DNA of 64,000 bases from Diacronema lutheri (Eukaryota > Haptophyta > Pavlovophyceae > Pavlovales > Pavlovaceae), in the NCBI GenBank assembly GCA_019448385.1, contig JAGTXO010000048.1, positions 217,742-281,741 on the forward strand, given 5' to 3'. The notes beneath the pieces were generated by a model, which saw nothing but the letters and a program-made list of their open reading frames with translations, was not told the DNA's origin and searched no databases. Position numbers and translations under genes: made by a program. Below are positions 317 through 54,372 of this stretch, in pieces. Each line of letters starts with the position of its first letter. Positions within the stretch are counted from its first letter, which is position 1.

Positions 317-778
317 AGTCTGGGGCCGTGATCGTCGTGATCGTCGTGATCGGTCGGCGCGGCGCGAAGTGAAGTATAGATGGTCAAGCCAAATCCGATC
401 AGGGGCACGATCGCGCCCCGAGTGCAGCGCGGGCCGTTCGGAAGGACGTCCTTGTGAGGGAGCTCTTCGCGTTTGGCGAGCGGGGGAGCACGACGCGCAG
501 CGTTGCTGCGGCGGCGTGCGGGCGGCGAGCAGCGGTCGGGCTGCTCGCGACGAGGCCGGAGCAGACGGCGCCGTGGCCGCCGGCGCAGGTGACGCGCGCC
601 GACGAGCCGTAGCGAGCGTCCGTGATCCGCACGGCGGTTGGAGCGGGCCGGCTGGTGCGGCGCGCTCGGCCACGGGTGGCGGCGTGCACGGTCGTGCCGC
701 GCGCGGCACGCGTCGCCAGCCGCGCGCGACCTGGGCAGAGCCCGCAAAGCGTCGACCGCTGCGCGGCTCGGCCGTGCG
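317..778. other. Region between the transporter and the Fanzor stop codon; possible guide-RNA site
   Basis: No convincing gene is seen. The left part has a GATCGTCGT tandem (about 329-348) and a near-exact 18-bp repeat of the transporter's last codons: GTCGGCGCGGCG-T/C-GAAGT at about 301-318 and again at 354-371. A GGGGC...GCCCC hairpin lies around 401-420. In known Fanzor and TnpB loci the guide (omega/f) RNA starts near the 3' end of the nuclease gene and extends past it. On the minus strand this region is therefore where such an RNA would be encoded. No RNA feature can be proven from sequence alone. Confidence 0.3.
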
Positions 779-3511
779 TCAACGCCGGCCGCGCTTCGGC
801 CCGCGCGCGCTGCCGCCGCCGGCACTGGCGCTGGCAGCTCCGCGGGCGGGGGTGCGGGCGCGAGAGCCGCCGCCGCCACCGCCGCCGCGCCCGCCGCCGT
901 CGTCGCCACCGCCGTCGCCGCCGCCGCCTCCCCCGCCGTCATCGTCGTCGTCGCCGCCGCCGCCTCCGTCGCCGTCGCCGTCGCCGTCGCCCTCGCCGCC
1001 GCCGCCGTCGCCGCTGCCATCGTCGTCGTCGTCGTCGTCGCCCTCGTCGTCGCCCTCGTCGTCGCCGTCGCACTCGTCGTCGCAGTCGTCGCCCTCGCCG
1101 TGCACCATGCGCTCCTCACGCTCCCACACCTCGCCGCGCGCCCACCAGGCGAGCACGAGGGCAAAGCGCTCAGGCGTCGACGTGGTGTCGCGCCCGGCCG
1201 CGTGCGCCGCCATGTCGTGCACGTCGTAGAAGATGTTGCGCGCGGCGTTGTAGTCGCGGTGCACGGGCTTCTTGCCGCCGTTGCACGCCGGGCAGATGAC
1301 GAGCGCGTGCACCGTGCGCGTGCCGCCCTTTGCCACGGGCAGGCGCGGGTTCTGCGCGAGCTCCGCGCCGCAGCGCTGCAGCCTGCCGCCCTTGGCGAGC
1401 CGCGGCATCGAGCAGTGCATCGACGTGTACGGCTCGGGCACGAAGACGGCCGCGACGCCGCGCCGCCGCAGCTCGCGCAGCAGCCCCACCTGGAAGGCGG
1501 GCGGCGCGCCCTTGGGCTGCGCGCCCTTGTGGTCGCGCAGCCACTTGCCCACGCACACGAGCAGCCGGTCGCGCGTCACGCCGTCGACACAGTGCGCCGC
1601 GATGAGCGCCTCGGCGACGCGCGCCGCGTTGGACCGCCCGCCGCTGTCGCGCCGCCAGCGCTCCTTCCGGCGCGCCGGCGCGTCGTACACGTGCTCGGCG
1701 GCGCGCTCGCGCACCCGCGCGCTCTCGCGGTGGAAGGCGATGTATTTGCCCGCGTCGAGCACCTTGGCGCTGTGCGCCTCGCCAAGCCGCGCCTCGTCCG
1801 CCTCCACGCTGAACTCCTCGCCGCGCCCGTCCTTGCGCACGCGCCGCCGCGCCGCGTTGGTCTTGGCCGTCTCGCGCGCAAAGCCCGCGGCGCGCGCGCG
1901 CGCGCGCTGCGTGAACTGCCGCCAGACGGCCGCCCGCCCGACGTGCGCAGAGTAGGTGGTGATGTTGCCCATGTTCGGGTCGGCCGCGACGACGACCGCC
2001 GCCTCGACGTCGATCGCCCGCCGCAGCTCGGAGCCGAGCGCGACGGCGATGCGCCCGTCCGGCCGGCGCCAGCGGTGCAGGACGCCCGAGCCGCCGGCCG
2101 GCGCCTGCGCCTTCGGCACGAGGACGGTCCCGACGGCGTGCACGGCGACGCCATCTGTCACCACCGACTTGACGGGCTGCCGGCCCGGGAGCGGCACGCG
2201 CGGCAGCGGCGCGAGGCCAACCCACGAGCGCCGCGCGTGCCACGGCAGATCGGCCGGCGGCCGCTCGCGCCCGGCGTAGTCGAAGACGCGGTTGGAGATG
2301 TCGAAGCGCGTCGCAAAGACCGCGTACCTGACGCGCACGTCCGACATCGGCGGGGTGTTGCCGTTTGTGCCTGTCCACTTGATCGGCTCGCCATCGTGGT
2401 CGCGCAGGTCCAGCGCCTTGAGCCGCGCGCGCAGCTCCTTGCGCTCGTCATCCGAAAGCGTCACCCAGATGGCGCTCGCGGCGAGGCGCACGTTGCGCGG
2501 CACCTGCGCGCAGCGCGCGGCGCGCGAGCGCGCGGGCGCGTGACCAACCTGGCCGCGGGGCGGCGCGCACGGCGGCGGCGCGCGCGCTTGGGCGCTCGGC
2601 GGCGGCAGCGGCAGCCACGCCTCGCGCGCACATTGTGCGTGCGCAGCGGCGCCACATTGTACCGCGGCGGCCGTCCGGTCAGCTGCGTGTGGATGTGCGC
2701 GAGCCGGCAGAGCAGCGCCTGCCCCTCGGCCACGTGCTGCAGGGTGCGGATCTGCACGAGGAAGTAGCGCGTCGTGTGCCGGTCGTAGTTCCACCTTTTC
2801 GTGGGCGTGCACTTGTAGTCGATCTTGTGGAGGACCATGTCGGGCAGGTGGCGGTCGAGCGCGGCGGGGCAGCCGACGCGCGCGCCCTCCACGTCGCCGC
2901 GCAGCAGCCGCTCGCACAGCTCGCGCACGCGCGCGTTTCGCTGCATCTCGGGCAGCGCGACGAGCGCCTCGTCGCGCTCGACTGCCGCGCGGACGACGTC
3001 GCGGAGCAGCCCGTTCACGACGCGCGATGGATGCATCAGGCACGCGGTGGACACCTGCGTCGCCTCCGCCTCGAGGATCTCCGTGAGGCCCACCGCGCAG
3101 ACGGGCTGGACGCCCTCGGCCATCTCGCCGACGGCGCGCGCCGTCGCCGCCTTGGTCTGCGCGGCGGCTTGCTCGGCGGGCTTGCCTCGGGGCGCTGCAC
3201 CGTACGTGCTCTCGTCCTTGTGCCAGCCGATGGCCGAGAAGATCGCACGGACGGTTCCCTTGTCCATCGTGGTCGACGTGTGCACGCTGGTCGACGGGCC
3301 GCCCGACGCCGCGCCGACGGCCTGCGCGCTCGCCACCGCATCCTCGTCGCGCACCACCTTGTTGATGACGCGGTACGCCTGTGTCGTGAGCCTGTGCACG
3401 GCCGCCGCGATGCGCCGCAGCTCCTTCCGCGCACCGGGCTGCGCCGTCACCGCCTGCGGCCCCGCGTTGAGCGTCGAGCGCTTGACCACGAAGCCCGGGA
3501 GCACGCTGACG
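779..3511 (-). CDS. Fanzor (TnpB-like) RNA-guided nuclease module at the C terminus of the giant gene
   Basis: Read through the 128-nt intron, this ~870-residue part has Fanzor order. An N-terminal helical/WED-like part (FVVKRSTLN, then PTKRWNYDRHTTRYF) is followed by Y-N-V-A-P-L...V-P-R-N-V-x-L. The RuvC-I Asp is in AADPNMGN (codon 1979-1981). The catalytic Glu is in VPEPYTSMHC (codon 1433-1435), the Fanzor-type E-x-x-T-S position. A Cys4 zinc ribbon comprises MHC, QRC and CPAC (1283-1294). The RuvC-III Asp is in HRDYNAARNIF (codon 1253-1255). All three carboxylates and four Cys are present, so the nuclease looks intact. The family is known to use a guide RNA to cut DNA in the nucleus. The tail (about 1,110-780) is Asp/Gly-rich and ends in a basic PKRGRR resembling a nuclear localisation signal. 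The first Met inside the module is at 3267, downstream of the conserved start, so an independent gene is less likely than a fusion. Confidence 0.85.
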   Translation of the reverse strand, partial: RQRAPGLRGQALDAQRGAAGGDGAARCAEGAAAHRGGRAQAHDTGVPRHQQGGARRGCGGERAGRRRGVGRPVDQRAHVDHDGQGNRPCDLLGHRLAQGREHVRCSAPRQARRASRRADQGGDGARRRRDGRGRPARLRGGPHGDPRGGGDAGVHRVPDASIARRERAAPRRRPRGSRARRGARRAARDAAKRARARAVRAAAARRRGGRARRLPRRARPPPARHGPPQDRLQVHAHEKVELRPAHDALLPRADPHPAARGRGAGAALPARAHPHAADRTAAAVQCGAAAHAQCAREAWLPLPPPSAQARAPPPCAPPRGQVGHAPARSRAARCAQVPRNVRLAASAIWVTLSDDERKELRARLKALDLRDHDGEPIKWTGTNGNTPPMSDVRVRYAVFATRFDISNRVFDYAGRERPPADLPWHARRSWVGLAPLPRVPLPGRQPVKSVVTDGVAVHAVGTVLVPKAQAPAGGSGVLHRWRRPDGRIAVALGSELRRAIDVEAAVVVAADPNMGNITTYSAHVGRAAVWRQFTQRARARAAGFARETAKTNAARRRVRKDGRGEEFSVEADEARLGEAHSAKVLDAGKYIAFHRESARVRERAAEHVYDAPARRKERWRRDSGGRSNAARVAEALIAAHCVDGVTRDRLLVCVGKWLRDHKGAQPKGAPPAFQVGLLRELRRRGVAAVFVPEPYTSMHCSMPRLAKGGRLQRCGAELAQNPRLPVAKGGTRTVHALVICPACNGGKKPVHRDYNAARNIFYDVHDMAAHAAGRDTTSTPERFALVLAWWARGEVWEREERMVHGEGDDCDDECDGDDEGDDEGDDDDDDDGSGDGGGGEGDGDGDGDGGGGGDDDDDGGGGGGGDGGGDDGGGRGGGGGGGSRARTPARGAASASAGGGSARGPKRGRR

Positions 3512-6500
3512 CGCGTGCGCGCCGTCGCGCCGCCGGCGGCGCGCGCGCTCGGCGCAGCGGGCTCGTCCACGCGCGCGCGCTCGACGCCGCGCGCGCGGGG
3601 AACGCTCGGCGCGCGCGCGCCCGCGGCGTCGCGCGCGCTCGCGGCGGCACCCGCCGCGGCGCGCTTGCCCGCGGCGCCCGACTCGCCGTGCGCGCGAAGC
3701 GGCGCCGACGCCAATGCCGACGCCGCGCCCGCGCCGCCGCTGCCGCTGCCCGATACGCCCGCGCGCCGCTTCTGCTCGTCGCGCGTCTTGCGGAACTGGG
3801 CGACGAGGTCGCTGCTCACGTTGGCCTCAGGCTCCCACGTGTCGGCGCTCTCGTCGTAGCCCCGCCACCTGATCCGGAACTGGAACGTCACCTTCTTGCC
3901 CGCCTTGCGGCGCTCGTCGACGACCGCCTCGACCTCGTACGTGCGCGCCTCCTCGTCGACGCTCGCGCCCGCCGCGCTCGCGCCCGTGTCCGGCCACCCA
4001 GCGACCGTGCCGCCCAGCCTCTCGGCGGCCGCGCGCAGCTGCCGCTCGCGCTGGGCGGCCGCGGCGCCTCGCGCGACCAGCGCGGGCAGCATGCCCGCGC
4101 CGCCCGCGAGGCCGTGCGCGCCGACGCTGGCGGTCATCAGCGCGTCGAGGCACGCGAACGTTGCGAGCGCACGCGCGCCATCGTCGCCGCCGCGCGGCTG
4201 CGAGCGCACGACGGGCGATGGCCGCGGCTCCCCCTCGGCCGCGAGCAGCGGCCAGATCGCACTGGCCAGCGCGACGGCATGCGCGCCGACCGCGACGGCC
4301 ACGTCCGCGTCGAGCGGCGCAAAGTCGTAGCGCACGAGCGCGGCCGGGCGCGAGTCGTCCGTCGGCCGGTCGGCGACGAGCAGCCCGACCGGGCGCGGCG
4401 GCTCGCCGGACGGCGCGGCGACGGGCACGCAGAGGAGCACGACGAGCAGGCGCGGCGTGCCGCCGAGCAGCGCGCGCGCGGCATCCGCCCCGTCGGCTCC
4501 GCCGCGCGCGGCCGCGGCGAGCAGCTCGGCCGCGCGCGTCGGGCCCAGCGCCGTGCGCGCGTCCTTGCGCGCGCGTGCGCGGGCCGTGTACGCGGCGCAG
4601 GCGTCGTCGAGCACCGCCGCGCTGGGCGCGGTGCCAGTCGTCGCCCACGCGCGCAGCGCGTCGCGCACCCGCGTGACGATCGCCTGGTCGACCGCCGCCT
4701 CGCCGGCAGCGTGCGCCGGCGCGCACGCCGGCGGTGCGGCGGCAGGCGCGAGCGCGGGCGCGCCGTCGGCGCCGTCAACGCCGACGGCGCCGTCGGCGCG
4801 CCGCCACGCGAGCTTCGCCTCGATCTGCTGCCGGACGGCGTGGCAGTGCCGGTCGATGCCGCGCGCGTCGTCGAGCGCGGCCAGCGCGTCCTCAGCGGCG
4901 GGACGGCCGCTCGCGTCCGCGACGGCCTGCAGGCAGAGCAGCGCGGCCGCACGCGCGTTGCACGCGCTCTGCGGCTCGGGCGCGAGCGCGAGCTCGAGCT
5001 CGAGCGGCGACGCGCCTCGCGCCGCGGCGATCGCGTCCATCAGCACGTCCAACCGCTGCACCAGCGCCCTGTGCGCGTCGCGCGGCGCGCCCGTCGACGG
5101 CGCGCGCGAGCGCGTCGCCAGGAGCCCGAGCGCGCGCGCCGGCGCGCCCGCCGGCGTGTGCAGCACGAGCAGCGCCGCGCCCGCCAAGCTCGCGTTGCGC
5201 GTGACGAGCGCGAAGATGCGCGTCGCCTCGTGCGCGCCCACCGACGCCCAGATCGCAGCGCGATCGGCGTCCGTCTGCGCGTCGCACAGGTCGCGCACGT
5301 CGTCCGGCGCGAGCAGCGCGCCGCCGCCGGCGGAGCGCGCGACGATCGCCCGCGCCTCCGCCACGAAGACGGCCTGCGGCAGGTCGGCGTGGCGCGCGTC
5401 GACGATGGCGCGCGTCGCGTGCACGCCGAGCTCCACGCCGCGGTAGAAGGCGCGCGCGTTGGCCGCGCGCGCGTGCGCCGGCCGTCCGTCCGCGTTGCGC
5501 CTCGCGCGCGCCTGCTTGCTCGTGCGCGCGAGGCCGTCGCGTGGCGGTGGCGGCAGCGTGGCGAGGAAGCGCGCGGCGGGCGGCGGCGCGCGCACGCCGC
5601 GCTGCCGCCGTGCGATGGCCGCGAGCCGCCGGCCCGCCGCGCTGCCGCCCGCGCCGACGTGCTGCCGGCGGCCGAGCGCCGCCGGTGGCGGCGGCGGCGG
5701 CGGCGCGGCGGCGGGCGGCGGCGCGACGGCGGGCGGCGGCGCGGCGGCGGGCGGCGGCGCGGCGGTGGGCGGCGGCGCGGCGGCGGGCGGCAGCGGCGGC
5801 GGCGCGGCGGCGACGGCAGCACCAGTCGGCTTGTCCGCCCACGCACCCGAGACGCTGTCCCAGGCCTTGCCCGGTGGCGCGCGCCCACGCGGCCGCGGGT
5901 GGCGGGCTCGAGCGGCGGGGGGCGGGCGGCCGGCGCGCCAGTCGAAGACAGGTGCAACCGTGGCGGCAGGCGCCGAGTGCAGCGCGTCGGTCACAGAGCG
6001 CGTGGTGCGCGCGGCGACCGTGGCGCGCATGGCGGGCGGGCGGTGAGCAGCGCCCGCCGGCGCGCCGGCGGGCGCGGCAGCCGGCGCGCCGGCGGGCGCG
6101 GCCGCCTCGAGCCCGGCGGAGGCGCCGCGCTTGCGCTTGCGCGTGCCGCCGCGCGTGCGCCTGCGCGCGCGCCCGCCGCGCGCCCGTGCGGCCTGCGCGT
6201 CGCCAGCCGCGTCGCCGGCCGCGTCGCCGCGCCGCACGTAGACGATCGCGAACGCCTCCTCGCCGGTCCCGTCGACGCCGCCGCGCGCGCGGCGTAGGAC
6301 CGACCGCCACTGCAGCCGCCGCGCGCGGCCGGGCTCGCACGCAAACCAGCGCCCACCGCGCCTGACGACGGCCACAAAGTCGTCGTCGCGCCGCCCGCGC
6401 CGGCGCGTGCGCAGCAGCACGCACTGCACGTCGAGCCAGCCCTCGTGCCAGTCGGCCGTGCTGGGGGCGACGCGAATCGACTGCGGGAGCTCGACGCCAA

Positions 6501-9500
6501 AGCCGGCGAGGCGCACGATGTGCGCGACGATGACGCTCGAAATGGCGGGGGCGCTCGACGGGTCGTCCGCTGCAGCGAGCACCGCCTCGCCCCAGTGCTC
6601 ACGCGTGACGCAATCCGCGTCCTCGACGTGCACGTGCGCCACGCTCGCGCCGAGCTGGTGCAGCAACGCGCAGATGTCGGCGTCGACCGTCCTCTCCTCC
6701 TCGGCCGCCTCGGCCGTGCCGCGGGCGGCGGCGTCGCCCGCCGGCTGCCCGAGGTACGCGATCGCCCGCTCGACGGCCGCGCCCTCCGCACGCGCTGCGC
6801 TGTCGATCGCCGCATTGCCGACGGGCGCGCGCAGCGCCGCGATCGCGTCTTGCAACGCCGTCGCGTCGCCCGTCGCCGCCGCCGCCGTCACCGCCGCCGC
6901 GCTCGCGGTGCCGTGCGCGACGGCGTGCAGCGCGGCGGCGCGCGCGGCGGGGATGCGCCCGTCCAGCGCGAGCACGAGCGGCGGCCCGGCCGGCGTCTGC
7001 TGCCGCCGGTGCCGCCGGCTCGCAGCCGGGTGGTCGGCGCGCGCGCGCTCGAGCCGCGCGCGCCGCTCGACGACGCGCGCCCAGAAGGCCTGCACCCTCG
7101 GCTGCGCGAATGCAAGCCAGCCGGCGCCGCGCGTCACGACGTGCACGACGATCCGGTCCTCGTGCCTGAGGTACTGCACGTAGAGCGCTTTGCTCACGCC
7201 GAGGACGTGCATGCCGAGCTGCAGCTGATCGCGGTGCGGCTGCGGCGGCCCGTCCTCGTGCGCCGTGGCGCCCGCCTTGGTGAGCGTCTTCACCTCGACG
7301 AGGACCTGCTCGTTGTTTTCGGGGAGGATGGCGAGCCCGTCCGGCGAGAAGGCGAACGGCGCGCTCTTGTCGTGCGGGTCCGCACGCACCATCGGCAGGT
7401 TGCACACGACGGTGATGCCGTACGCGGCCGCCAGCTTGCGCAGCGCGACGGCCTCGCCGAGGATGCCCGCGGTCGTCGCCTTGGTCCGCACCTCGCGCCG
7501 CCGCCGGTGCACGTACTCGTCGGTGAGCGTCTCGTGCGCGACGCCGGCGTTGTCGTTCACGACGTCGCCAACCTTGCTGCCCGTGACCTCCTCCCATCGC
7601 TCGTCGTGCCAGCGCGGGCTGCGCTGCGCGGGCGCGCCCGCGCCGACGGCGTCGAGCACGCGGCGCAGCGCTGTGCCGTCGGGCGCAGCAGGCACGCGCG
7701 CGCGGTCCTGGGCCTCGCGAGCGTCGAGGACGCAGCCCGTAGTGGAATGTTGGGGTAGGTCGAGCTTGCTCGCCTCGCCGTAGCGGCTCTCCAGCTGGCG
7801 CGGTGCGTCGGCAGGGCCGCCGTCCGTGCGCGCACCCGACGCGCCCGCCAGTGCACGGGGCGCAGCGTCCGAGGCGCCCGCCGCGCCCGCGCCGCCGCCA
7901 ATCGCGCCAGCGCACGCGCGCGCCGCGACCTGCGGACGGCCAGCCGCAGGGACCTCGTCCGCTCGGCCGGCCGCTGCGTCGGCCGTCCGCTTGGCCACCT
8001 CGCGCACGTCTCCGAGCGCGAGCGTGGCTGGCGCCGTCCAGCTCCCGTTGCGTTTGTCCCAAAATTTGAGCAGCCCGCCAAGGAAGGGCGTGCCCGTCGG
8101 GCGGTCCTCGGGCACCTCCGCCAGGATCGCGTCGACGCGCAGCGCGGCCGCCACATCGCAGAACGCGCGCGCGGCGCGCGCCATCCGCTCGGCGCGCGCG
8201 CCGCCGTCGTCCGCCGCGCGGCGGATGGCGTGGCTCACGTGCGCGACGCGGAGCGAGACGACGGCGTGCGCCGGCGCGTCGGCGCCCGTGCCGAGCGTGT
8301 GCCGCCGGATGGCCAGCTGCCCATCGCCCATGCGCGGCGGCAGCGACGCGCACGCCGCGACGGTCGTCGTGCCGGCCGCGCTGTCGCACAGCCAGCTCGC
8401 CTCGCCGCCGCCCGCAAACTCAAAGGTCGCGAAGCCCTCGCGGCCGAAAAGCGCGACGAAGTGGTCGAGCACCGCCTTGTTGATCGCGCGCGCCGCCGGC
8501 CGCGTCGATGCGCCGCGGGCAGCGCCACCCGCCGCGCCGCGCGCATCGCTGCACGTCGCAGGGCAGGTGCAGCCGGACGCGCGCACGCCGTCCGACCGCG
8601 TCCGCGGCAGCTCGAGCTCGCGCACCTTGGGGCAGAACCAGAGCGGGTTGGACGCCTCGAGGCACAGCACGACGAGCCGCCCGTCCGTGCCGGCCAGCGC
8701 GCGCGCGTCGCGCAGCAGCTCGACGGCGAGCTCGGACGTCGCCGCGTGCACCGCCGGCTCGCCCGTCGCGCGGTCGGGCGGGAAGAGGCCGCCGCCGACG
8801 AGCGGGCTGGGGCAGCGGCCGAGCATTACGAGCAGCGGCGGCGGCGGCGTCTGCGGCGCCTGCTGCCCGACCGCAGCCGCCGTCAGCCCGGCCAGGTCGG
8901 AGCTCGTGCGGAGGGCCTTGAGCGCGACGCGCGAGCCGGTGCCCGCCTGCTCGGAAAACGTGGCGAGCATGGCGCACGTGCTCGCCCTCGCGCCGCACTG
9001 CCAGCTGACGCGCGCGAGGAGGCCTTCCAGCGTGTCGTTTTCGCGCGGCCGCGTGACCGCGTCGAGCGCCGCCGGGCCGAGCTGGAGGCTGCCGGGCGTG
9101 ACGCACAGCACCGCCTCGTGGTAGGCGCGCAGCAGCTCCCTCGGCAGCTGCTCGGCGGGCGTCGCCGCCTGCTCGCCCACCCACCGTACACCGTGGCCGC
9201 CGTCGCCCGCGCCCGCGAGCCGGACCGCCGGCCCGCCCGTGATCGCCGAGGTCGGTGGCGTGCCGAGCGCGTCGACGAGCGCGCGCACGGGCGCGACACG
9301 CCTGCGCGCAGCGTCCGCGCCGACGGCGAGCGCGGCGATCTGAGCGCCCTCCCATGCGCGCTCCCTCGCGTCGTCCCGCGCGGCCGCCGGCGCGGCGCCC
9401 GGCCGCGCGCCGGGCGGCACCGCGCACGCCGCCGCGACGACCTCCGCGCGCGCGCCGGCGGCGTCGGGCGCGTGCAGCTGCGCGAGCGCGCCAAAGAGCG

Positions 9501-11320
9501 CGGCGGCCGAGCGGTAGCGGCCGTGCGCCGCGACGAGCGCGTAGAGCACGCGCAGCGCGGCCACGCCCGCCTGGTCGGGCGCGTCGCCAGCGATGCGCCC
9601 GACCTCCCACGTGCGCGTGGGCGGCGGGCTGCCGTCGGCCGGGTCCGGACGCAGCGCCCACGCGCGCTCGACGATCGCGTTGAACACGTCGCGCGCGGCG
9701 CCCTCGTCAAACTCGGCGGCGCCCGCCGCGTGCGCGCACCACCCGTGCACGCGCGACGTGGGCGCATCCACGGCGCGCTGCACGACGAGCACCGCCGGCC
9801 GGTCGACGCAGCCGAGGCTCACCGCCGCGTGCTTGCCCTCGAGCAGCGCCGCCGCCGCAGCCTCGACCAAGGCGTCACCAGGCGCGTCGCCGACGACGAC
9901 GGCACAGCCGTCGCCGTACTCGGCCTGCATCGCGGCGACGCACGACGCGACAAAGTCGCCGCCCGCGGCCGCCGCGTGTCGCGCCGCCAGCATCCGGCGC
10001 GCGATGGCAAGCCAGACGTACTCGGCCGGCGCGCGCGCGGCGCGCGCGCGAGGCGCGCCGGCCGCGCCGCGTGCGCCAGCGCGTGCGCCTCCAGCGGCCG
10101 CAACGGCCGAGGCGGCTGGAGCGGCGGTGAGCGTGCGCCGCGCGCGCTTCGCCGGCCGCGCGATGGGCGATGCACCCGCCGTCGCACCGCCCGCAGCAGC
10201 CGGTGCGGCCGCCACAGCGCCCGCCGCGACGCCACTCGTCACGACGCCCGTGGCGGGCGGCGCGGCGTCGGACGCGGCCGCCTCGACGGGCGTCGCGCAA
10301 CTACCGCCAGCGGTCGCGGACGCGCCCGGCGACGCGTCGGCGAGGAGGTGGCGCAGCACGCCGCGCGCGAGCGCGACTCGCACGGCGAGCGTCAGCGCGC
10401 GCAGGCGGTCGGAAGGCGAGGCGTCGCGCTCGGCGTCGGCGGACGTGGCGGCAGCAGGCGGGGCGGCGGGCGGCGCGGCGGCGGACTGGGCGGCCGCCGG
10501 CGCAACCTCGTCGGCCTTGGCCAGCCAGACGAGCCCGGCGACTGCGAGCACGACGCTGTACGCGCCGACATCGTCACCCGCAACGCGCGCCAGCCGGGCG
10601 TGGGCGTCGGCCTCGGACACGGCGACGCGGAAGAGCACGTCGTCGCGGGCAGCTTGCTCGGCAAACTGACGCAGCTGCTTGGCCATCGTCACGCCGGCGA
10701 CGCACGCCTCGCCCGCCTCTGCCTCGACCTGCTCGTCCTGGCCGATGGCGGACGCGCCGGCCTCGGCGCCACCGTCGAGTGTCCGGCGGCGCTCGAGGGC
10801 AAAGCCACGCACACAGACGCTCTGGAGGCCGCCGAGCGCGCCCGCCTTCTCGTGCAGCGCGCACGACAGCTCGACCACCGAGTCCACGCGCGTCGCGGCG
10901 GCGCCCCCCCGCTCGCCGCGCGTGGGCGCGCGCACGACGAACACCGTGAATTGCGCGCGCTTCGCCGCGCGCGCCGACGCGCACGCGTGCTTCAGGAGCC
11001 GGCAAAGCGCGGGCCTTTGCGCCGCTGCGCCCCGCGTGCACAGCAGCAGTTGGCCGCGCTCGTCGCCCAGCTCCTGCTCGATGGCGGCCTCGAGCGCGTC
11101 GTCCGTCAAATCGCCGTGCTCCGTCGAGGCGAGCGCGCGCGCAGCCGCGAGCGCCAGCTCGCCTGCGCCCGCGCGCCGCCGGCGGCGCGCACCGGCGGGC
11201 GCGTGCGGCGCCGACGCGTGTGACGACGCCGCCGCGTCCGCGCGCGCACACGCGGCGCGCAACGCCTCACGCGCCGAGGCGGCCGCGCGCGCCCTGGGCG
11301 CGAGCCTCAAGAACGTGCGC

Positions 11321-11410
<90 letters not shown>

Positions 11411-14400
11411 TCGCCCGCGTCGCCGGCCGGCGGCGGCGGTGGCGGCGGTGACGGCGCGGCCACGGCGGCGGCAGCAGCGGCGGCGGCGGCGGTGGCGGCG
11501 GCGGCGGCGCCCAGCGCGGGCGGCGGCGGCGTGGCGGCGGCGGTGGCGGCGGCGGTGACGCCAGCGGCGGCCTTGGCGACGCGCGTCTGCGGCGGCGCTT
11601 CGGCGCGATCGGGGCTGCCCCCGCCACGCACCGCGCTCGTGCCCGCGCAGACGCCGCCCGGCGCACGATCGCTGGCCGCGCCGGTCAGCGCGACGCGGAG
11701 GCGCTCGCCGACAGCGTACATGTCCGCCACGCTGAACGTGCGCGGCGCGGACGAGCAGCCCGCCGCGGCGAGCGCGTCGTTGAGCGCGCCCACTATCGCG
11801 AGGCCGCACGTCGCGCCACGCTGCGCCGCCTCGTCGAGCAGCCGCGCGCGGCGCACGCGCGAAATGTCGAGACCCGCCGCGTGCAGCGTGGCAGTTATCG
11901 CCGTGGCGAGCACGAGCGCCCGCCTGCAGGGCGACGCGAGCGTGTCGACGAGCACCGCGTCGTAGCGACGCTCGCCCGCGCGCGCGACGCGCACAAGGCG
12001 CAACGCGGTGAAATGGCCGGAGGCGAGCTGCGCGCCGTCGTCACCGCCCGCGCCGCCGCGCTCGTCCGACGGGCTCCACACGCCGATGACAGCCTGCGTC
12101 GTCGCCTCGCTGCGCAGGCGGTGCAGCAGCGCGGCGCGCTCGGCGCCGTCCTGGAACACCGCGGGTTGCGCGGCGAGCGGCACGTGGCAGACATGCCCGC
12201 CGCCGGCCTGCCCGTGCACGCGTAGCACGACCTCGCAGCACGCGTCGACGGTTGAGGCGAGCATGTCGCCGCTGGCGATGCGCTCCACCTCTGCCTGCGG
12301 GAGGCCGGCGCTCGCGGCGGCGGAGGCCAGCCGGCGCGCAGCCGCGTCGCCCGCCCACGCAAGCAGCGCCGAGTTGGCGGGTTGGAGGGGAAGCTCAAGG
12401 GCGGCTGGTTCGGTGGCGGTAGCCTCGTTGGCAACGGGCACGTTGGCGGTGCGCACGTTGGCGGCGGGCGCGGCGGCGATGGCTGGTGGGGCGGAGGACA
12501 CGCCCGCGGCGGCAGGCGCGGACGCGACAGCGGCAGCGGCTAGCGGGGCGGGGAAAACGCCGTCGGTGGCTGGCGCGGAGGCGAGTGCAGGAGCAACTAG
12601 TGGGGCGGGAAAATCGGCGGCAGGCGCGAAGGCGGATGCAGCAGCGGCTAGTGCGGCGGGGAAAACACCGTCGGCGGCAGGCGCGAAGGCGGATGCAGGA
12701 GCGCCCAGCGGGGCGCAGAAAACACCGTCGGCGGCAGGCGCGAAGGCGACAGCAGCAGTGGCCAGTGGAGCGGAGGCGCAGGGCCACGCGCGCGCCAGCC
12801 GTGCAAGCCCAAGCCGCGCGCGAGCGACGCACGCGCCGATGGCCGAGGCGGCGGCGCAGGCCACGACGTGGCCTGGCACCGGTGTGGCCAGCCGCTCGCG
12901 GGTGTGCACGTCGAGCCGCGCCCCACGCCAAGAGCGGCGGCGCGCTGAACGGAGGCGCGCGACCCCGATCGATCCGCCCGCGCACGCGCGCGCCGGCTCA
13001 GTGTGGCCAACGCGCGCCGCTATGCAAGGCGCGCGCGCGATAACGGCGGCTGTCGGCCGTGGCGTGCGCGTGGCGGCGCCGCGGCGACGGGCGCGGCACA
13101 CGAGCCGCTCGGGCGCGCCGCCGCCGCGCGGCACGATGTCGAGCAGCACGGTCACGCCGCGCGCGCGCGCGACCGCCGTGCACGCGAGCCGCACGGGCAG
13201 CGGCGGCCCGTCCGGGCGCGCGAGCGCCGCCACCTCGGCGTCGGTGAGGCTGTGCAGCTCGCGGCGCGCGCGCGCGAACGCGGCGATGTCCGCGCGCAGC
13301 TCCGCGTCCGTGCCGAGCGCGGCACGCGCGTGCACGGGGAGCGACGCGCGCAGCGCGTGGAGCACGCCGCCGCGCGCGCCGCGCGGCGCCGGCGCGCGCT
13401 CGCGCTCAGCGCGCGCGGCGCGCGTGAGCTCGCGCACCGCGCGCGCGAGATTGCGCCGCGCGGCCGCGACGGGAGGGCTAGGTGCGCGCGCGCGCCGGTT
13501 GTAGCGCGGCCGCGCCGAGTCGAGGGGCGGCGGACGCGGTGCGTACGCCGCGGCGCGGCCCGCGCGCCAAAAGGCCGGCGGCGGGCGCAGCTCCGTCGCG
13601 TCGACCGCGGCCGCGAGCGCGCCGAGCGCGGCGTCGCTGTCGCCCGCCGCGTCGGCCGCGTCGACGAGCACGAAGAGCGCGCCGAGCGCGCGCGACGCGG
13701 CCGCCTGCGCGGCGGTGGGGCGGGCGCAGGCAGCGACGCATGCGGCCGCCATGCCGCGCGCCGCGGCGAACGCCGGTGACGTGACGGCCGCGCCGATGGC
13801 AACGGCGGCGGCGGCGACGGTCGAGGCGGCAGCGCCGGCGATGGAGGTGGCAGCGGCGGCGGCGCTTGCCATCGCGCGGCGCGCGAGACGCGAGGCGCCA
13901 CCGACCGCCGCCGCCGCAGCGCGCGCTGCGCGCGCGCCGGTGGCGCGCATCGTCGCCGCGCCAGGCGCCGCCGCGCCGACGCCGCCGGCGCCCGCGCCGT
14001 CGCCGCTCTCGGCCGTGCAGGGCTCCGATGGCGAACCCGGCGTGCGCTGGCGCGTGATGCGCGCGCCGAGGCGCGCGCTCCGCGCCGCGCGGCCGGCGAC
14101 GTCGAGGAAGCGCCGTGCGCGCGCCGCGCGCAGGCCACGCGCGCGCGGCGGCGCACCGACAGGCGCCGAGCGCCGCGGCGCGCACGCCGGCGCGTCGCTG
14201 TCGGGTTGCGCAGCGCGCGCGCGGGAACTCGGCGCGGCGTGTGCGGGCGGCGGGCGCGCGCCCGCGCGGCGCAGAGGCGCGAGGCGCCGGCCGCAGACGA
14301 GGCGTGTGCGCAACCAGGACGGCGAGGGCCGCAGGGCGCCGTCGACGTCGCGCATCGGCGGGCCGCGAGCCCGCCGCGCAGCCGTGCGGCGCGCGCGAGG

Positions 14401-17400
14401 CGCTCGGCGGCGCGCGCGCCGCACGGCGCGCGCGGCGGCGCGCACGCCAGCGACGGCTGCGGCCACGCCGCGCGCCAACACGGCCGCGGCGTGCGCCATC
14501 GCACCGAGCACGGCGCGTGGCGCGCCGAGCAAGCGCAGCAAGCGCGACGCCGTCGCGCGCGCCGGCGCACCGTGTGCAGGGGCCTCGCCAGCGCCAGCAC
14601 CGACGCCGCCATCGCCGCAGCCGCAGGTGGCGTCGCCGCCGCCGCAGGCGTCGCGACGGACGCCGCCGCCGCCGAAACAATCGCCGCACACGTCGCCGCC
14701 GACGTTGCCACCCCAGCCGCCGTTGCGTGCGCAGGTGGCTGCGGCGCGTGCGTGCGGGAGGCGTGCCGTGCGGCGCGCATCACACGGGCTGCGCGACGCG
14801 AGCGACGCCGCCGGGGTCCCCGCTGCGCCAGGCGCGCCGTGCGCGCCAGCCTCGCCGGCCTCGCCGGCGCGCGGTCGCGCGCTCGCCTCGACGTGGCCGC
14901 CTCCGCCGCCATCGCCGCCGTCGAACCGGGCGGCGGAGGGCTGCCGCTCGAACCGCTCGTCGGCGTCGGCCGCCACCGCCGCCTCGCGCTCCGCCGCCGC
15001 GGCGGCCGCACGGCGCGCGTGGCGGAGCGCGCGGCCGCCGTCCGCTGCGCGGCGTGGCGGCGCGGGCGCCGCCTTCGGCGCGCGCGGCCCCTCGGCGCGC
15101 TCGCGGAGCACGGCGAGCGGCGTGCCCGTGGCGACGCTCGTGCAGACGCGCCGCAAGGCGGCGCTTACGCACGCGTGGACGACGCGCGCCGTCCGCTTGT
15201 CGGCGGCGCGCGCGGCGCGGCGCGCGGCCTTGGCGGCGGCCTTTTTGGCGCGCCTCCGCTCCGCCTGCTCCGACAGCGCGCGCGCCTGGCGCTCGGCTGC
15301 GAGCGCGTCCTCGGGCGAAACGGTCGGCCTCGGCGGCCGCGCGCGCGCGCTGCGACGCTGCGCGCTGCGGCGGTCGGACGGCGGCTGCCGCGGCGGCGAG
15401 GACGGCGGGCGCGAGCTCGGCGTGGGCGACCAATCGCCGCTGACGGTTGCGAGCGGCGCAAACGGGTTGTCGTCCCCGCGCCCCGCGGCGTGCGACAGTG
15501 CACGCGGCGTCGGGCGCCGGCCGACCGCTGGCGGGCCCCACTCGGACGGCGGCTCCGAGGGCGAGCGCGCCGTCGGCGCCGCGCGTTGCGCGGCCGGCGG
15601 CGCCTCCCGGTCCAGCGCCGCCTGCTCTCTCGCCGCGGCCTGCTCGTCACCCTCCGGCACGCCACGCGGCGCGAGCACCGCGGTGGCGCAGCGCGTCGCG
15701 TTGAGCAACGCCGCCTCCATCTGCCGCACGCTGGCCTTGGCGCACGCCACACCCTGTCTCGCCCGGCGCAGCGCCTCGTGCGCGCGGCGCACTTCCGCGT
15801 CGGCATCTTCGCGCATGCCAAAGTGCGCCTGTTGCAGCCGCAGGTCCGCAGGGCGCCCCTGCGCGCGAGGGGCACGGGCGCGGCGGCGCGCAGGTGACGG
15901 AGCTGGCGCGCCGTTCTGCGCTGCGCGCACGCCAATCGACGGGCGCGCGCGCGGCGGGGCGCGCGCGCGCGCGCGCGCGCGCGCTGCCTACCCAGCCGCC
16001 GGCCGGCTCGCGCGAGCGCGCCAGCTGCTCCGCCGCCTCGGCGTCGAGCACGCGCTGCTGCGCCTCCTCCTCGCCCAGTGCAGCGAGGTGCAGCCGGCGG
16101 GCTGCCTTGCGGCAGTTGCCCTCCGCCTTGCCCACGGCCTTGCGCGCCGCGTCGACGGGGTCGTCGTTGGCTCTGGCGCGCCTGCGCTTGCCCTTGTCGG
16201 CGGGCGGCGGCTCGGCGCGCTGCAGCGTGCCGAGCGCGTCGTCGGCTCCGCGCGCGGCCGCCCGCGGGCGGCGGGCCCCAAAAAGCGCACCGGTCGCCGT
16301 GCGCGCCGCGCAAGCAACGACCAGCGCTGACATGCCGGCGAAGACCGCACCGCCCAGCGCCACGGTTGCCACGATGCGCAGCGTCCCGTGCGCAAGCTGC
16401 GCTGCCTCCGCCGCTTTGGCGGCCTCGCGCGCGCGCGCATCGGCGGCTCTCATCTCGTGCAGCAGCCCGGCCGCGCCGCTCGCGCCGTCGCGGCCGCGCG
16501 CGAGCTCGCACAGCACCGCCGCCGCGCGCCGCGTGGGCTCGCGCGCGAGCAGCTGCGCGCCGCCGTCGGGGCGCAGCTTCTCAACGAACTCGACAAACGT
16601 CGCGTCGCGCCAGAGGGACATGCGGAAGGCCCTGTGCACCGCCCCCTCCTGCTCGCGCATCCGCCGTGCCGCCCGCCTGCCGTCGCGCGCGTGCGCGTGC
16701 GCGGCCGCGTCGACTCCCGCGACGCCGCGCTGCGCGTCGCGCGCGGCCGACGACGGCGCCGCCGCGCTGCCCGCCAAGGGCGCCGCAGCGGCGACGCGCG
16801 CGTGCGGAGCGACGGGATCGCCGGCGGCCGGCGGCTCGGCGCGCTGCGGCGTGCCGTTTGCTCCGCGCGCGGCCGTCCCGGGGGAGGTGGCCGCGATGGC
16901 GCCGCCAGCCGCGCCGCGCGCCAGCCACGCGCATAGGCTGCCGACGAGCTCGCCGAGACCCCCGACGGTCGCCGCGGCGGCGAGTGCGCCGGGCTTGCCG
17001 GCCGACAGCGGCTCGCGAGCGTCGTCGTCGCAGCCGCCGGCACCCGTCTTGGCGAGTGCGTCGCGCTCGCCCTCGACGCCCGCCACGACCGCCGCCCCTC
17101 CGTCGTCCGCCGCGCCGGCCGCGCGCGCGGCCGGGCGCAGAGGAGGCGTGCCGGTGCAGCCGTCGCCGCTCGTCTTCGCCGTTTCCTCCACTTTGGTCAC
17201 TTCGTCGCCACCTGCGCCATCTCCGACGCCGGGGCCCTTGGTCACGCTTGCCGCCATGCGCGCCGTGCCCGCCGGCCAGCCCGCCGACTGCTCGAGCGCG
17301 GCGGCGAGCGGCGCGACGCGCGTCGACTCGGGCGCGCTCTCGTCATCGGGCTCGAGCGCGTTGTGCAGGCGCGCGAGCGCGCGCTCGACGGCCGCGGCGC

Positions 17401-19666
17401 CACTGCCGGGGGCGCGGCTCGCCGCGCGCACCGCGCGCCGCCAGGCCGGCGCGAACATGAGCGCCGGCTCGAGCGCCGCGAGCGCGCGCGCCTCGCGCGC
17501 GTCGCTCGCGCCGAGGCGCGGCGGCACGCGCGCGGCTCCGCGCGGCGCGGTGCCTCGGAAGCGTGGGCTCAGCGTGTAGGCGAGGTGCTGCGGCACGCCG
17601 CGCGCCTCCGCGCGCGCGCGTCCGTCCTCGACCTCGCGCCGCGCCTTCGCGATCGCCGGCGTGGCGCGCGCGAGCCAGTCGGGGTCGGCGGGCAGGTGGA
17701 TCACGACGAGAATCGGCGCCCAGTCCAGCCGCGGGTTCTTGTGACGGTCGGGCACGACCCACACGAGCAGCACCGTGCCCTCCGCGCCGCACGCCGCCTC
17801 GTAGATCCTGGGCTGCGAGCGCCAATCGGGCCTGACGCGCAGCGCCCGCGCGTGGTCGATGGCGGCGGCGCGGTCGCCATTGAAGTGAACCGTCGTCACC
17901 TCGCCGATGACGGACCGGCCGGACCGCCAGCAGAACACCGCGTCCGCCGACCCGCCGGCGATGGCCGCGAGCGATTCGGGCGCGGCGAGCCGCGGCAAGC
18001 CCTCGAAGGCGGCAAAGTCCTCGTGCGCATTGTACACGCCGCCCCAGCCGTCGTGCGCGTACGCGCGCGCGGCCGCTCGTACCGCGCGCGGCTGGTTCTC
18101 CACGCCCGACGTCATGTGCCATGTCGTCCCCGCGAAGCCGGGCTCGCCCAGCTCGGCCCGCACGACGGTACCGTACCCCGCGCCCTGCGTCGGGGCGGCG
18201 AGGTGGTGCATGCCCGCGCCGGTCACGCCCTCCGTGCGCTGCCGCGTGACGATCGTGCCCGTCGCGTGCGCGAAAAGCGTGTCGACCACGGCGGGCGCGC
18301 GCCCGCTGTTCGCCCGTGGCCGCGCCCTGCCCGCTTTTAGCTGCTCGGGGTCCTTGGCGTCGTACACGCGCGCGTCCGCGTCGCCCTCATCAGGCGCAGT
18401 GTAGACGCAGCGGCGTTCGAGCGGCGCCGAGCCACCGCCGTCCGCCGCCGCCGGCGAGGTTGGCGCCGCGCCCGCCGCCACCGCGCTCGTCGCCGCCGTG
18501 CCCGTCGCCACCGCCGCAGCCGCCGCGCCCGCGGGGTCGTCGTCCCCGTCCTCCGCGCCCTCCCCGTCGTCAGCGGTGGTGGCGTCGCCATCGTCCCCGT
18601 CGCCCTCGCCCCCGCCGAGGCTGCTGAATGGTCGGGGCCCCCACGCCGAGGCGGCGCGCCGCTGCGGCGCACGCGGCGGTGGCGCTCGCGACGGCGGCCT
18701 TGGCGCCGCCGCGCCGCGCGGCCTGGCCGCCGTCGACAGCGCGCGGCCTGCAGCGCCCGTGAGCGCGTCGAGCGCGGCCGTGCGTGCGATGCGGTCGTCG
18801 GGCGCGCGCAGCGCCGCCTCGACGGCCTGCAGCAGCCCGTCGGGCGCGGATCCGCCGACACTGGCATCGCACGCCTCGGCGAGCCGCGCGGCCTCGGCGA
18901 GCCGCGCGGCCTCGCGGGTGAACGGGCCGAAGCGCCTGGCGCGGTCGCCGAGCAGAGCGCCGATGGCGGCGCGGAGCGTGCGCGCGCGGGTCTCCTCGTA
19001 CGCGGCCGTCGTGAGGCGCGCGAGGCGCGCGTCCAAAGCCTTCTTGATGTCGACAAGGACACTCGCGCGGCGGCCGTAGAGCGTCGATGCGCTCGCCACG
19101 ACCTCGGCCGCGACTGTTGCCGCGGCGAAGCAACACGCGGCCCCACTCTGCGGGGGCGCCTTGAAGGCATCGATGGGCGGCGCTGTTCTGCCGATGCGCT
19201 GCGCAAGCTTCTTGATGAGCACGCCGGCCGCCGTGGCGTACGCCGATTCGCCGTTGCCCAAGGTGCGCGAATCGGCGAGCAGGGCGAGCGCGGCGCCGGG
19301 CGGCGCGCCGCGCTGCGCGGGCGGCGCGAGGAGCAGGTACGCCGCCGTCCAGTGCACGAGGCCGCTGGACGCGCGGAGGCAGAGCGGTAGCACGACCACG
19401 AGCACCTGCCCAAACCGGTCCGCATCCGCGCATGCTTTGCGCAGGTTGCGCAGCGCCACCTTGAGCGCATGCTGCGAGCACCCCGTGTCGCCCACCCTAA
19501 CCCTGCTCGTGCCGAAATCCGCGTAACGCAGCAGGGCGATGAGGCAAGTGGATGGGACCACGTGGGGGTGGGTATCTCCCGGCGACAGAATGGTGCTGAG
19601 GGCCAGCGAGAAACTGTCCGAGCCGCCCCGCCCGCCGGGCAAAGCGTCCTTCACGGAGTCCTCCAT
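779..19666 (-). CDS. Giant multidomain protein: Ulp1-like proteases, YqaJ nuclease, chromodomain and Fanzor
   Basis: The proposed model is three exons on the minus strand, 19666-15992, 15858-2632 and 2503-779. They total 18,627 nt, exactly divisible by three, giving about 6,208 residues. Domains in order: a Ulp1-like protease with H105-D132-Q173-C179; a hydrophobic segment (RIVATVALGGAVFAG) and a charged coiled coil near the first splice junction; Ala-rich linkers; a second Ulp1-like protease at ~2390-2580; a YqaJ-type exonuclease at ~3970-4140; a chromodomain at ~5197-5249; and a Fanzor module from ~5340 to the end. Two further stretches (near 9.4-10.1 and 4.1-4.5 kb) look like protease relics without the Cys. 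The start ATG is the first in the frame, and upstream exons are possible. Long open frames are cheap at this GC content, so only the recognised domains are certain. The locus could be several genes, or a polyprotein cut by its own proteases. The 13-kb central exon has no frame break, unlike the neighbouring helicase. Confidence 0.55.
2504..2631 (-). other. Predicted 128-nt intron inside the Fanzor module
   Basis: On the minus strand the sequence reads AAT|GTGCGCGCGAGG ... GCGCGCAG|GTGCCGCGC. Both sides are phase 0. Removing it joins ...NVAPLRTHN to VPRNVRLAAS, which restores the conserved Fanzor segment where P-L/R residues are followed by V-P-R and a hydrophobic-Asp/Ala strand. Without it the N- and C-terminal halves lie in different frames. 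A one-base frameshift near 2630 is the alternative but would leave about 40 unconserved residues. Confidence 0.65.
3786..3945 (-). other. Chromodomain directly N-terminal to the Fanzor module
   Basis: About 53 residues match the chromodomain pattern: TYEVEAVVDERR, then VTFQFRIRWRGYDESADTWEPEANV and a C-terminal helix ending LVAQFRK. The aromatic cage positions (Y of YEVE, W of RWRGY, W of TWEP) are present. Chromodomains bind methylated histone tails, and in chromoviral integrases they steer insertion to heterochromatin. Here the domain is joined to the Fanzor through a ~90-residue Ala/Ser/Arg linker in the same uninterrupted frame. Methyl-histone binding is inferred from the family. Confidence 0.8.
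7110..7625 (-). other. YqaJ / lambda-exonuclease-type PD-(D/E)xK nuclease domain
   Basis: The segment starts SPRWHDERWEEVTGSKVGDVVN and carries GILGEAVALR, then FAFSPDGLAILPE, LVEVKTLTK and HRDQLQLGMHVLG, ending VQYLRHEDRIVVHVV. This is the YqaJ order: an R/W-rich start, G-x-E, S-P-D-G with the catalytic Asp, E-x-K, and Q-x-Q-x-G/x-M. These nucleases resect double-stranded DNA for single-strand annealing in phages, giant viruses and several eukaryotic mobile elements. All catalytic residues are present. Confidence 0.8.
11320..11409. repeat. (GGC)n tract coding an Ala run in the giant protein
   Basis: About 30 uninterrupted GGC units encode a polyalanine stretch on the minus strand within the giant reading frame. 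Tracts of this kind are prone to length change, and the length here being a multiple of three keeps the frame. Confidence 0.9.
11790..12370 (-). other. Second Ulp1-like (C48) cysteine protease domain
   Basis: The protein starts LLAWAGDAAARRLASAAA, continues CHVPLAAQPAVF, then GHFTALRL (His), YDAVLVDTLAS (Asp) and QRGATCGLAIVGAL (Gln and Cys). The order H-D-Q-x4-C-G with these flanking hydrophobic strands is that of Ulp1/SENP-type proteases, common in large eukaryotic DNA transposons. Substrate is unknown. It could process the giant protein or remove ubiquitin-like modifiers. Confidence 0.6.
12480..12770 (-). repeat. Degenerate in-frame protein repeat (APAADGVFPAPL-type) in the giant gene
   Basis: Five or six imperfect units of about 20-25 residues are visible, each containing a version of A-P-A-A-D-G-V-F-x-A-P-L followed by Ala-rich spacer. 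The DNA shows matching GGGGCGGGGAAAACNCCGTCGGC blocks. It sits just before the second protease and probably forms a flexible linker. Confidence 0.7.
15859..15991 (-). other. Predicted 133-nt intron joining the first two exons of the giant gene
   Basis: The donor is TGG|GTAGGCAGCG and the acceptor GCGCGCAG|GGGCGCCCT, both phase 0. Joining them continues a charged coiled coil (…VLDAEAAEQLARSREPAGGW + GRPADLRLQQAHFGMREDADAEV…) that would otherwise stop. The intron contains a (GC)n run. The support is continuity of coiled-coil character plus splice consensus only. Confidence 0.5.
19130..19360 (-). other. First Ulp1-like cysteine protease domain, near the N terminus of the giant protein
   Basis: Residues SGLVHWTAAYLLLAPP supply the His (H105), LALLADSRTLG the Asp (D132) and PPQSGAACCFAAATV the Gln and Cys (Q173, C179). 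The Q-x5-C spacing is the same as in SENP/Ulp1 proteases. The N-terminal ~90 residues (starting MEDSVKDALPGG) fit the helical front part of that fold. Sequence conservation outside the catalytic residues is low. Confidence 0.5.
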
Positions 19667-20185
19667 CTGCAGACTGTGGGCACGTCAGTGTCCGGATGGC
19701 GGCCCGGATGATACTCGGGAGAATTTACATGATGCCCTGGAGAATGCCCCGCTCTCCCACAACCAGGACCCGCCAGCGCGCCGAGCCTACTCGTTTGCCC
19801 GCGCCGCCTCTCTTTGCGCGCCCGAGCGCGGCCTCCGAGCGCGGCCAACGTCCTCCGGGGGCGTGCATCGTGGCTGCTCGGAGGGGCTGCGACGCGGCGA
19901 AAGCTCGCTGCGCGGCCGCAACGTGAGCGCGCGCGCGCGGCCGCGCGCCGGCCTGCGCTGCTCTGCACGGCCGCGCGCCGGCCTGCGCAGCCTCGTCGCG
20001 CAGCGTGAGCGCGAGCGCGCGCGAGGTGAGCTCGGCGGATGGGTGCGCGGCGGCGTTGGCGGCGGGTGCGGCGGCAGGCTGGGCGGCGGGTTTGGACGGA
20101 GAGTGTCGGGGAAGAACGGGGCGCATCCTGGCTGGGAGTTGGACGGCGCCCACCACGCGCTGGCGGATCCTGGTTGCCACCACCA

Positions 20186-20202
20186 CCCCCCCCCCCCCCC
20201 CC
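20186..20202. repeat. Poly-C tract (17)
   Basis: A C homopolymer preceded by CCACCA and followed by GGAGACGAGGAC, a 12-mer that also follows the poly-G tract near 22,630. Confidence 0.9.

Positions 20203-21570: not shown

Positions 21571-21605
<35 letters not shown>
21571..21605. repeat. Poly-C tract (35)
   Basis: The longest homopolymer of the window. Its exact length is likely unreliable in any sequencing read. Confidence 0.9.
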
Positions 21606-21606
<1 letters not shown>

Positions 21607-22008
21607 ATCGGCGGACCGATTGCGTTTTGGTGCGCCAGGCTCAATGCGCCATCGCAGTGGCGGGCCCGCAGACGCAGACGCTGACATGCCCAACGCTGGG
21701 CACTGAGGCCGCAGGCCGGCCCTCCTGGACCTGGCGGGCGAGCTGCCCGCGCAGCGGCCACGCGAGCCTCGCACTGACCGTGGCGGTCGCTGCCACCGTG
21801 ATAGCTGCGGGTGCGGCGGCCTTGGCCCCAACCCCATCATCCGTCTTCATCCCCGCCCTGCTCGCGCTCGCGGCCTACGTCGGCAATCCCTGCACCGGGA
21901 TCCGCCCCGCGAAGTCCACACAAGACTTATCCGTGCTGCACGCCAGCCGCGCGCGCCGACGCGCGCCGCTCCCACACGCTCACCTCCGTTTCCGCGGGCG
22001 GCCCAACG

Positions 22009-22045
22009 CCCCCCCCCCCCCCCCCCTCCCCCCCCCCCCCCCCCC
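22009..22045. repeat. Poly-C tract interrupted by one T (18+18)
   Basis: Two C runs of 18 are separated by a single T. Confidence 0.9.
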
Positions 22046-22412: not shown

Positions 22413-22592
22413 TCACATTTGAGCGTCCGTGCTCGCCCACAGCGTCGCCATCCACAAGATGCGCGCTGGAGCCATCCAAGCAGGGCTCTGCCTGCTCGGC
22501 TTCCGCAAGGCAATTTGGGCCGCGGACAGCGGACAGCGGACGGCGTGCGCGTGCGAGGTGCGAAAGGAGGAAGAAGGTAGGGAGAGTTGTGT

Positions 22593-22623
<31 letters not shown>

Positions 22624-30648: not shown

Positions 30649-30681
<33 letters not shown>

Positions 30682-52932: not shown

Positions 52933-54372
<1,440 letters not shown>

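Follow-up and report, generated by a model that had tools for sequence, protein, structure and literature searches.

Does one end of a 64,000-nucleotide stretch from the haptophyte alga Diacronema lutheri (hereafter called the window) encode a chromodomain fused to a nuclease of the Fanzor family, as a first-pass annotation of the sequence had proposed, and to what kind of genetic unit would such a gene belong? The observation behind that proposal was confirmed in part and its interpretation is supported in part. Our best explanation, to which as a whole we give a probability of about 55%, is that a 31-kb element at this position is a giant DNA transposon that has been amplified recently in D. 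lutheri, that its terminal gene joins chromodomain and Fanzor in one coding sequence by way of a predicted splice, and that the product would act through RNA-guided cutting and recombination copying while being tethered to chromatin. The parts of the gene and of the element are located as follows.

374..31400, no strand assigned: whole mobile element of 31,027 bp, the bounds being the positions where copies lose identity; termini are GTATAGATGGTC... at the left and ...CGCC[G/C]TATATAG at the right.
2461..15930, minus strand: open frame of 4489 codons that ends in the chromodomain and the Fanzor N-terminus, with its first in-frame ATG at 15816.
3787..3939, minus strand: chromodomain (Pfam PF00385, E 6.6e-12) with an intact Y-W-Y aromatic cage.
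3496..3786, minus strand: Ala/Gly/Arg-rich linker of ~97 amino acids with neither an in-frame ATG nor a stop.
2632..3495, minus strand: Fanzor N-terminal half, end of exon 1, weakly alignable here with the Fanzor of a second family in the same genome (L081); coding potential is continuous to 2629.
2504..2631, minus strand: predicted GT-AG intron of 128 nucleotides, phase 0 (GTGCGC...GCGCAG).
779..2503, minus strand: Fanzor C-terminal half with RuvC D/E/D, PF07282 at 1232-1471 and an acidic Gly/Asp tail.
374..778, minus strand: 3' untranslated end after the Fanzor stop, a candidate guide-RNA (omega/reRNA) region that ends ...CTTGACCATCTATAC at the insertion site.

The first-pass annotation had read chromodomain and nuclease from one minus-strand frame, which turned out not to be the case. 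Chromodomain, linker and Fanzor N-terminal half belong to the open reading frame (ORF) 2461..15930, the RuvC/zinc half is encoded in another frame by ORF 779..3043, and codon-usage segmentation places a frame switch between 2629 and 2509, in a score whose training set was the long frame plus 1100-2503 and which is therefore not independent. A single continuous frame is ruled out by these ORF positions and by the frame switch. The proposed fusion thus stands insofar as both parts are assigned to the same gene and their pairing recurs in many genome copies, but it needs a predicted splice to the correct frame. Eleven GT-AG pairs would yield an open join, and the intron 2631/2504 was chosen because its product is collinear with L081 and because the public gene model KFE25_006464, which covers another copy, has the identical junction (...PLRTHN/VPRNVRL...). 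Removal of 2631-2504 deletes a stretch that is absent from L081 and restores collinearity with that second Fanzor. In subfamily B of the element the second frame has a stop just upstream of the intron while the exon after it is intact, and copy L009 carries a 2-nucleotide insertion inside the intron with both exons intact. An alternative intron, 2655/2504, the product of which would be eight residues shorter, may also fit the sequence. By its coordinates (C69:1672449-1675608), KFE25_006464 appears to continue from the Fanzor exons in a copy on C69 to a host SAM-domain gene ~100 bp past the copy end, and it is possible that this model represents a host-transposon chimeric transcript.

The chromodomain was recovered where the first-pass annotation had placed it (3786-3945), and searches of the PDB with this domain matched chains of CDY, HP1 and MPP8, with a best E value of 4.3e-10 and one of 2.1e-9 for HP1. 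In HP1, the residues Y, W and Y form the methyl-lysine aromatic cage, and they align with Y, W and Y of the element chromodomain. By its Pfam assignment and by this cage, the domain would fall into the class of methyl-lysine readers; it differs from HP1, CDY and MPP8 by its nuclease partner, and no chromoshadow domain was found in Pfam scans. Two Pre-SET domains occur in the host genome, which makes an H3K9-type mark plausible. It is plausible, as the first-pass annotation had suggested, that the chromodomain would target the element or its nuclease to particular chromatin or keep it there. With regard to the start of the protein, the in-frame ATGs nearest to the linker are located at 4092 upstream and at 3267 inside the Fanzor, with none between them. 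The linker from the end of the chromodomain (3786) to the start of the Fanzor (3495) thus offers no ATG in frame, and a full-length Fanzor that begins with an ATG includes the chromodomain. Translation from the ATGs at 4137 or 4092 could give a free chromodomain-Fanzor protein; otherwise, the fusion would form the end of the very long protein. A Fanzor without chromodomain may arise via a non-ATG start, an unseen upstream exon or proteolysis.

The nuclease half is recognised by PF07282 (TnpB/Fanzor C-terminus) with an E value of 3.1e-6 and 27.7 bits, above the curated cut-off of 26.3, at about 1232-1471 of the window, and the codons of the RuvC carboxylates are at the sites where they had been claimed (D 1981-1979, E 1435-1433 as the relocated glutamate, Ealt, and D 1255-1253). 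A tblastn comparison of the C-terminal half with L081, over a single 3.5-kb stretch, gave 25% identity over ~330 amino acids with the three carboxylates aligned (E 2e-7). In both proteins the relocated glutamate precedes the first zinc cysteine by six residues (E-PYTSMH-C in the window, E-SYTSQD-C in L081), an E-x6-C placement that is described as the Fanzor arrangement in the accessible part of PMC10711439. A profile made from the two Fanzors reached Cas12f1 at 1.3e-4, and TnpB chains and Guillardia theta Fanzor1 only at 0.2-0.65; after a near-identical public sequence (P0004) had been added to the C-terminal-half profile, Cas12f1 was found at 3.5e-5, and by profile the RuvC2-3 region could be aligned to Cas12f1. 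On these grounds the nuclease is called a divergent Fanzor-family RuvC protein, with all three carboxylates kept.

What had been missed previously is that this part of the window is one terminus of a 31-kb repeat, the ends of which occur ~220 times in the genome. When the 43.49-Mb assembly (103 contigs) was searched with at most 2 mismatches, 225 left and 223 right ends were found, and 0 with reversed-pattern controls; these are counts of ends, not of full copies. Seven copies were followed over 20-30 kb, several of which are rearranged internally. According to PMC8379373, the genome of the species was assembled from PacBio data and annotated by BRAKER2 with RNA-seq. Ten contigs break at or within ~10 bases of the element left end (starts of C1, C5, C6, C10, C12, C26, C29, C80 and C83 and the end of C71), from which it follows that the element limits the D. 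lutheri assembly. Copies anchored at telomeres were considered as an explanation for these ten contig ends, but the ends lack telomere repeats and were taken as assembly breaks.

Chromodomain and Fanzor were found together in many copies. Among the best 150 of 260 chromodomain matches, 105 are accompanied by a Fanzor at a near-constant distance, the remaining 45 consisting of 4 of other sequence and 41 without a listed partner. From the Fanzor side, a listed chromodomain partner was present in 69 of 93 matches and, in a second list, in 90 of 119. None of the 31 best-scoring TNB matches was paired with a chromodomain among the best 150 of 260 chromodomain matches, and these 31 are presumed to be other Fanzor families. 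At least one further family exists in the genome, since L081 (C9:378600-382100), with 1153 amino acids of open frame that hold PF07282 and no other Pfam domain, shares the carboxylates and the E-x6-C spacing with the window Fanzor but differs from it by a DPG motif at RuvC1, a full zinc motif with intact CxxC and the lack of a chromodomain in the copy examined. Fourteen PF07282 matches are of similar score, several of them in open frames of more than 1000 codons. As to the integrity of the fusion, 20 copies (the window and 19 others) contain no stop or frameshift from the chromodomain through PF07282, and their chromodomain is free of single-nucleotide polymorphisms (SNPs). Together with the subfamily copy L082, which at 97.5% DNA identity has an open frame and the cage kept, all 21 copies examined keep the fusion open and the three RuvC carboxylates. 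L014 has a 1-nucleotide deletion in the acidic tail, and L004 and L006 have an in-frame 6-nucleotide one. For the Fanzor half (453 amino acids), each of the best 93 of 418 candidates that were scored shows 99-100% identity and no internal stop.

Upstream of the fusion, the element encodes the following further features.

7201..7611, minus strand: exonuclease domain of YqaJ/RecE-like type, sharing one open frame with the chromodomain (PHROG 434, RecE-like, 1e-10; PF09588, 6.7e-4).
15647..19666, minus strand: upstream ORF of 1339 amino acids with no Pfam domain.
23035..24447, minus strand: ORF with a UCH (ubiquitin hydrolase) domain (PF00443, 3.6e-8).
25626..28150, minus strand: PIF1 helicase in an interrupted frame (PF05970, 1.5e-24 and 1.9e-15; PF21530, 5.4e-13).
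28534..29402, no strand assigned: nested inverted repeat, with blastn matches to copies in both orientations.

The 4489-codon frame is far longer than expected by chance, as 200 first-order Markov shuffles of this stretch gave a maximum open run of 1279 codons. Its exonuclease domain scored 20.4 bits with PF09588, below the cut-off of 22, and a PHROGs search with six pieces gave the RecE-like match only. The N-terminus of ORF 15647..19666 may, judged by its motifs, be cysteine-protease-like. For the first frame change of the PIF1 gene, an intron was considered and rejected, as neither of the two GT-AG options was sensible, and private mutations did not explain it either. Among the element ORFs scanned, none matched the Polinton/Maverick Pfam families (protein-primed polymerase, integrase, capsid), an IS607/IS200-type TnpA recombinase or an HUH transposase. 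The element shares with Helitrons a PIF1 helicase and the lack of a target duplication but is without HUH/Rep; assignment to the Helitrons was rejected, since the single genome match to PF14214 (Helitron_like_N) is on contig C63 and none is in the element ORFs scanned, a scan by which a very divergent Rep could be missed. Outside the element, the window contains at 52933-54270 a polyubiquitin gene (five ubiquitin stretches) that adjoins a thioredoxin-domain gene, and at 63300-64000 the telomere at the contig end, where TAAGGG-type subtelomeric repeats are followed by TTAGGG repeats.

At the insertion sites, no target-site duplication beyond a conserved TATAG was detected in any of 24 end pairs: 3 have 2 bp in common and the other 21 nothing, whereas shuffled sets give 1.7 pairs with 2 bp, and TATAG is present at both element ends in 23 of the 24. 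In a sample of 20 loci, two of which had no flank, the guanine-plus-cytosine (GC) content of the first 50 bp of the left flank was below 60% in 10 of 18 cases, compared to 3.6% of 50-bp segments across the host part of the window, which indicates that the element inserts into short AT-rich patches. Mean flank GC (18 left and 4 right flanks) approaches the host-part value by ~200 bp. Host genes are close to the element in the window and, as inferred from coordinates, at KFE25_006464, and neither flank GC nor nearby host genes gave a sign of confinement to a gene-poor compartment. A recurrent repeat, (AC)TAACGRCGCTT, occurs at or near the insertion points in the flanks of L034, L052, L060 and L099. 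An empty site was sought via the repeated flank of L060 and L083, but the right flank had no match and was uninformative.

How might such an element spread? An RNA from its 3' end would guide the Fanzor, with the adjoining host sequence serving as the guide, and the Fanzor would cut alleles or sites that lack the element. The break would then be repaired from the element-bearing copy, aided by the RecE/YqaJ-like exonuclease and by a PIF1 helicase of the element or supplied in trans. The chromodomain would tether the nuclease to methylated histone H3 and thereby bias the site of action or hold the complex on chromatin. PMC10432273 mentions cutting of empty sites with recombination copying as a proposal for TnpB and considers it for Fanzor also. 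Guide RNA, cutting, histone binding and chromatin tethering are functions that we infer from the sequence. In its strict form, in which the transposon would spread by RNA-guided homing without any classical transposase, its own flank providing the guide, the chromatin-tethered nuclease cutting the empty allele and RecE-like and PIF1-type proteins doing the copying, we regard the model as unlikely.

Several findings weigh against our best explanation. In the nuclease, RuvC1 reads DPN and not the DPG that is reported as 'near exclusive' in Fanzors, a wording in the accessible source that is not absolute. The Cys4 zinc ribbon of the first-pass annotation retains its four cysteines, but the first CxxC is broken (C-S-M-P, with another cysteine 13 residues later) and only the second is intact. 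A single-sequence search of the PDB with the Fanzor gave no match, and NCBIfam guided_TnpB (NF040570) scored 12.4 bits against a cut-off of 100, for which reason the nuclease was not filed as TnpB proper; L081 misses this cut-off as well (25 bits). For the candidate guide-RNA region, the fold of 374-620 reached only z = -1.96, with 7 of 200 shuffles folding as well, and no Rfam match was obtained in window 1-32000. Purifying selection is not evident: 11 synonymous, 25 nonsynonymous and 0 nonsense SNPs were counted among the 20 copies, where about one or two nonsense changes are expected by chance among 36 coding SNPs and the zero is thus weak. Between the window and subfamily B, the ratio of nonsynonymous to synonymous rates (dN/dS) is 0.81 (22 synonymous and 51 nonsynonymous changes in 970 codons); chromodomain plus linker account for 1 synonymous and 5 nonsynonymous changes, and the ratio is 1.07 for Fanzor exon 1 and 0.62 for exon 2. 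The copies are young, and their comparison gives no proof that selection maintains the fusion. Of the 93 Fanzor matches listed, 24 have no listed chromodomain partner, including the window's own, which is partnerless because the chromodomain list holds the best 150 of 260 candidates. No transposase family was found in the element ORFs scanned, including 27 further ORFs, and the frame changes of the PIF1 gene are not mended by an indel in any of the five copies compared, one of which was covered in part and one of which is at 92-96% identity; with no sensible intron either, the element may have lost its helicase or obtain one in trans. Insertions occurred at local AT-rich dips and not in an obvious heterochromatin. 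Finally, protein searches found no relative outside D. lutheri when up to 8000 candidates, and 1733 in one search, were scored among proteins of at most 1.75x query length, in collections that hold few algal transposons and under a length limit that an annotated giant protein would escape; only P0004 (98%, ENA, 2435-nucleotide contig) and P0005 were matched. Viral contigs gave no match with PIF1 or with the Fanzor alignment.

Some of these findings can be read in other ways. The frame change at 2631-2504 could be a disabling frameshift and not an intron, in which case no complete Fanzor would be made, and frame changes without a good GT-AG solution do occur in the element's PIF1 gene. However, the GT-AG excision with its phase-0 join drops just the stretch that is absent from L081, the junction is present in KFE25_006464, and the changes in subfamily B and in L009 leave the exons intact, so that we consider a frameshift highly improbable. 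A second reading is that the fusion exists in the reading frame only: proteases would cut the long product, and chromodomain and Fanzor would act separately, the chromodomain perhaps serving the upstream part. This would suit a chromodomain that shares its 4489-codon frame with the RecE/YqaJ-like domain, a linker of a composition that is easy to cut and several upstream stretches which by eye resemble cysteine proteases in their motifs. But Pfam finds no protease, as the whole frame at E 0.1 yields the chromodomain and YqaJ only and six upstream pieces at E 10 yield YqaJ and one chance match; moreover, the chromodomain is the recognised domain nearest to the Fanzor, and a compact protein with both parts could begin at the ATG of 4137 or 4092. 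Separate action of the two parts is therefore somewhat doubtful.

The Fanzor might also be a passive or decaying passenger of an element that is moved by another enzyme, with chromodomain and nuclease now idle. The dN/dS of 0.81 between subfamilies, the broken PIF1 frame of the five copies compared and the DPN motif together with the broken first CxxC are consistent with decay, whereas the three RuvC carboxylates in 21 of 21 copies and the lack of an internal stop in all 93 copies scored (best 93 of 418) argue against it, as does, weakly, the lack of nonsense changes among the 36 coding SNPs in 19 copies. An idle nuclease thus appears to be a somewhat improbable explanation, and we retain the spliced chromodomain-Fanzor as terminal gene of a giant transposon as the best account.

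In comparison with known systems, Fanzors of DNA transposons such as CRe-1/2/3 of Chlamydomonas (PMC3627910) and the characterised Fanzors (PMC10432273) resemble the D. lutheri protein in the RuvC D-E-D, the relocated glutamate, PF07282 and the position at the transposon end. As far as these partly accessible papers describe them, the D. lutheri gene differs by its chromodomain, the very long frame, DPN, the broken CxxC and a 31-kb element with a RecE-like exonuclease. Fanzor cargo is also known in Helitron2 (excerpt of PMC3627910). In another alga, Auxenochlorella, no repeat is more abundant than an uncharacterised Fanzor-encoding element according to PMC12633428, so that a high copy number of Fanzor elements is no novelty in itself; that paper nowhere mentions a chromodomain. 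An accessory chromodomain is named in PMC6338049 and a chromodomain-bearing integrase of adintoviruses in PMC11071296, each in the part available. These integrases and those of chromoviruses likewise combine a DNA-acting enzyme of a mobile element with a chromodomain, yet they are rve-type with the chromodomain at the C-terminus, in contrast to D. lutheri, where the chromodomain lies N-terminal to a nuclease of RNA-guided type. No chromodomain-Fanzor or TnpB-chromodomain fusion was found in the literature searched, which included few subscription papers and in which the papers that name both Fanzor and chromodomain do so in separate contexts.

The role of a Fanzor for its element is called unknown in the accessible text of PMC10432273, and the D. 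lutheri element offers a test of it. As D. lutheri can be cultured and its near-identical element copies have intact active sites, transcripts, guide RNAs, cleavage and histone binding are open to direct experiment, and the Fanzor family without chromodomain provides a control within the same genome. A genomic parasite may thus aim a programmable nuclease through chromatin, and, if true, engineered nucleases that are targeted to chromatin would have a counterpart in nature.

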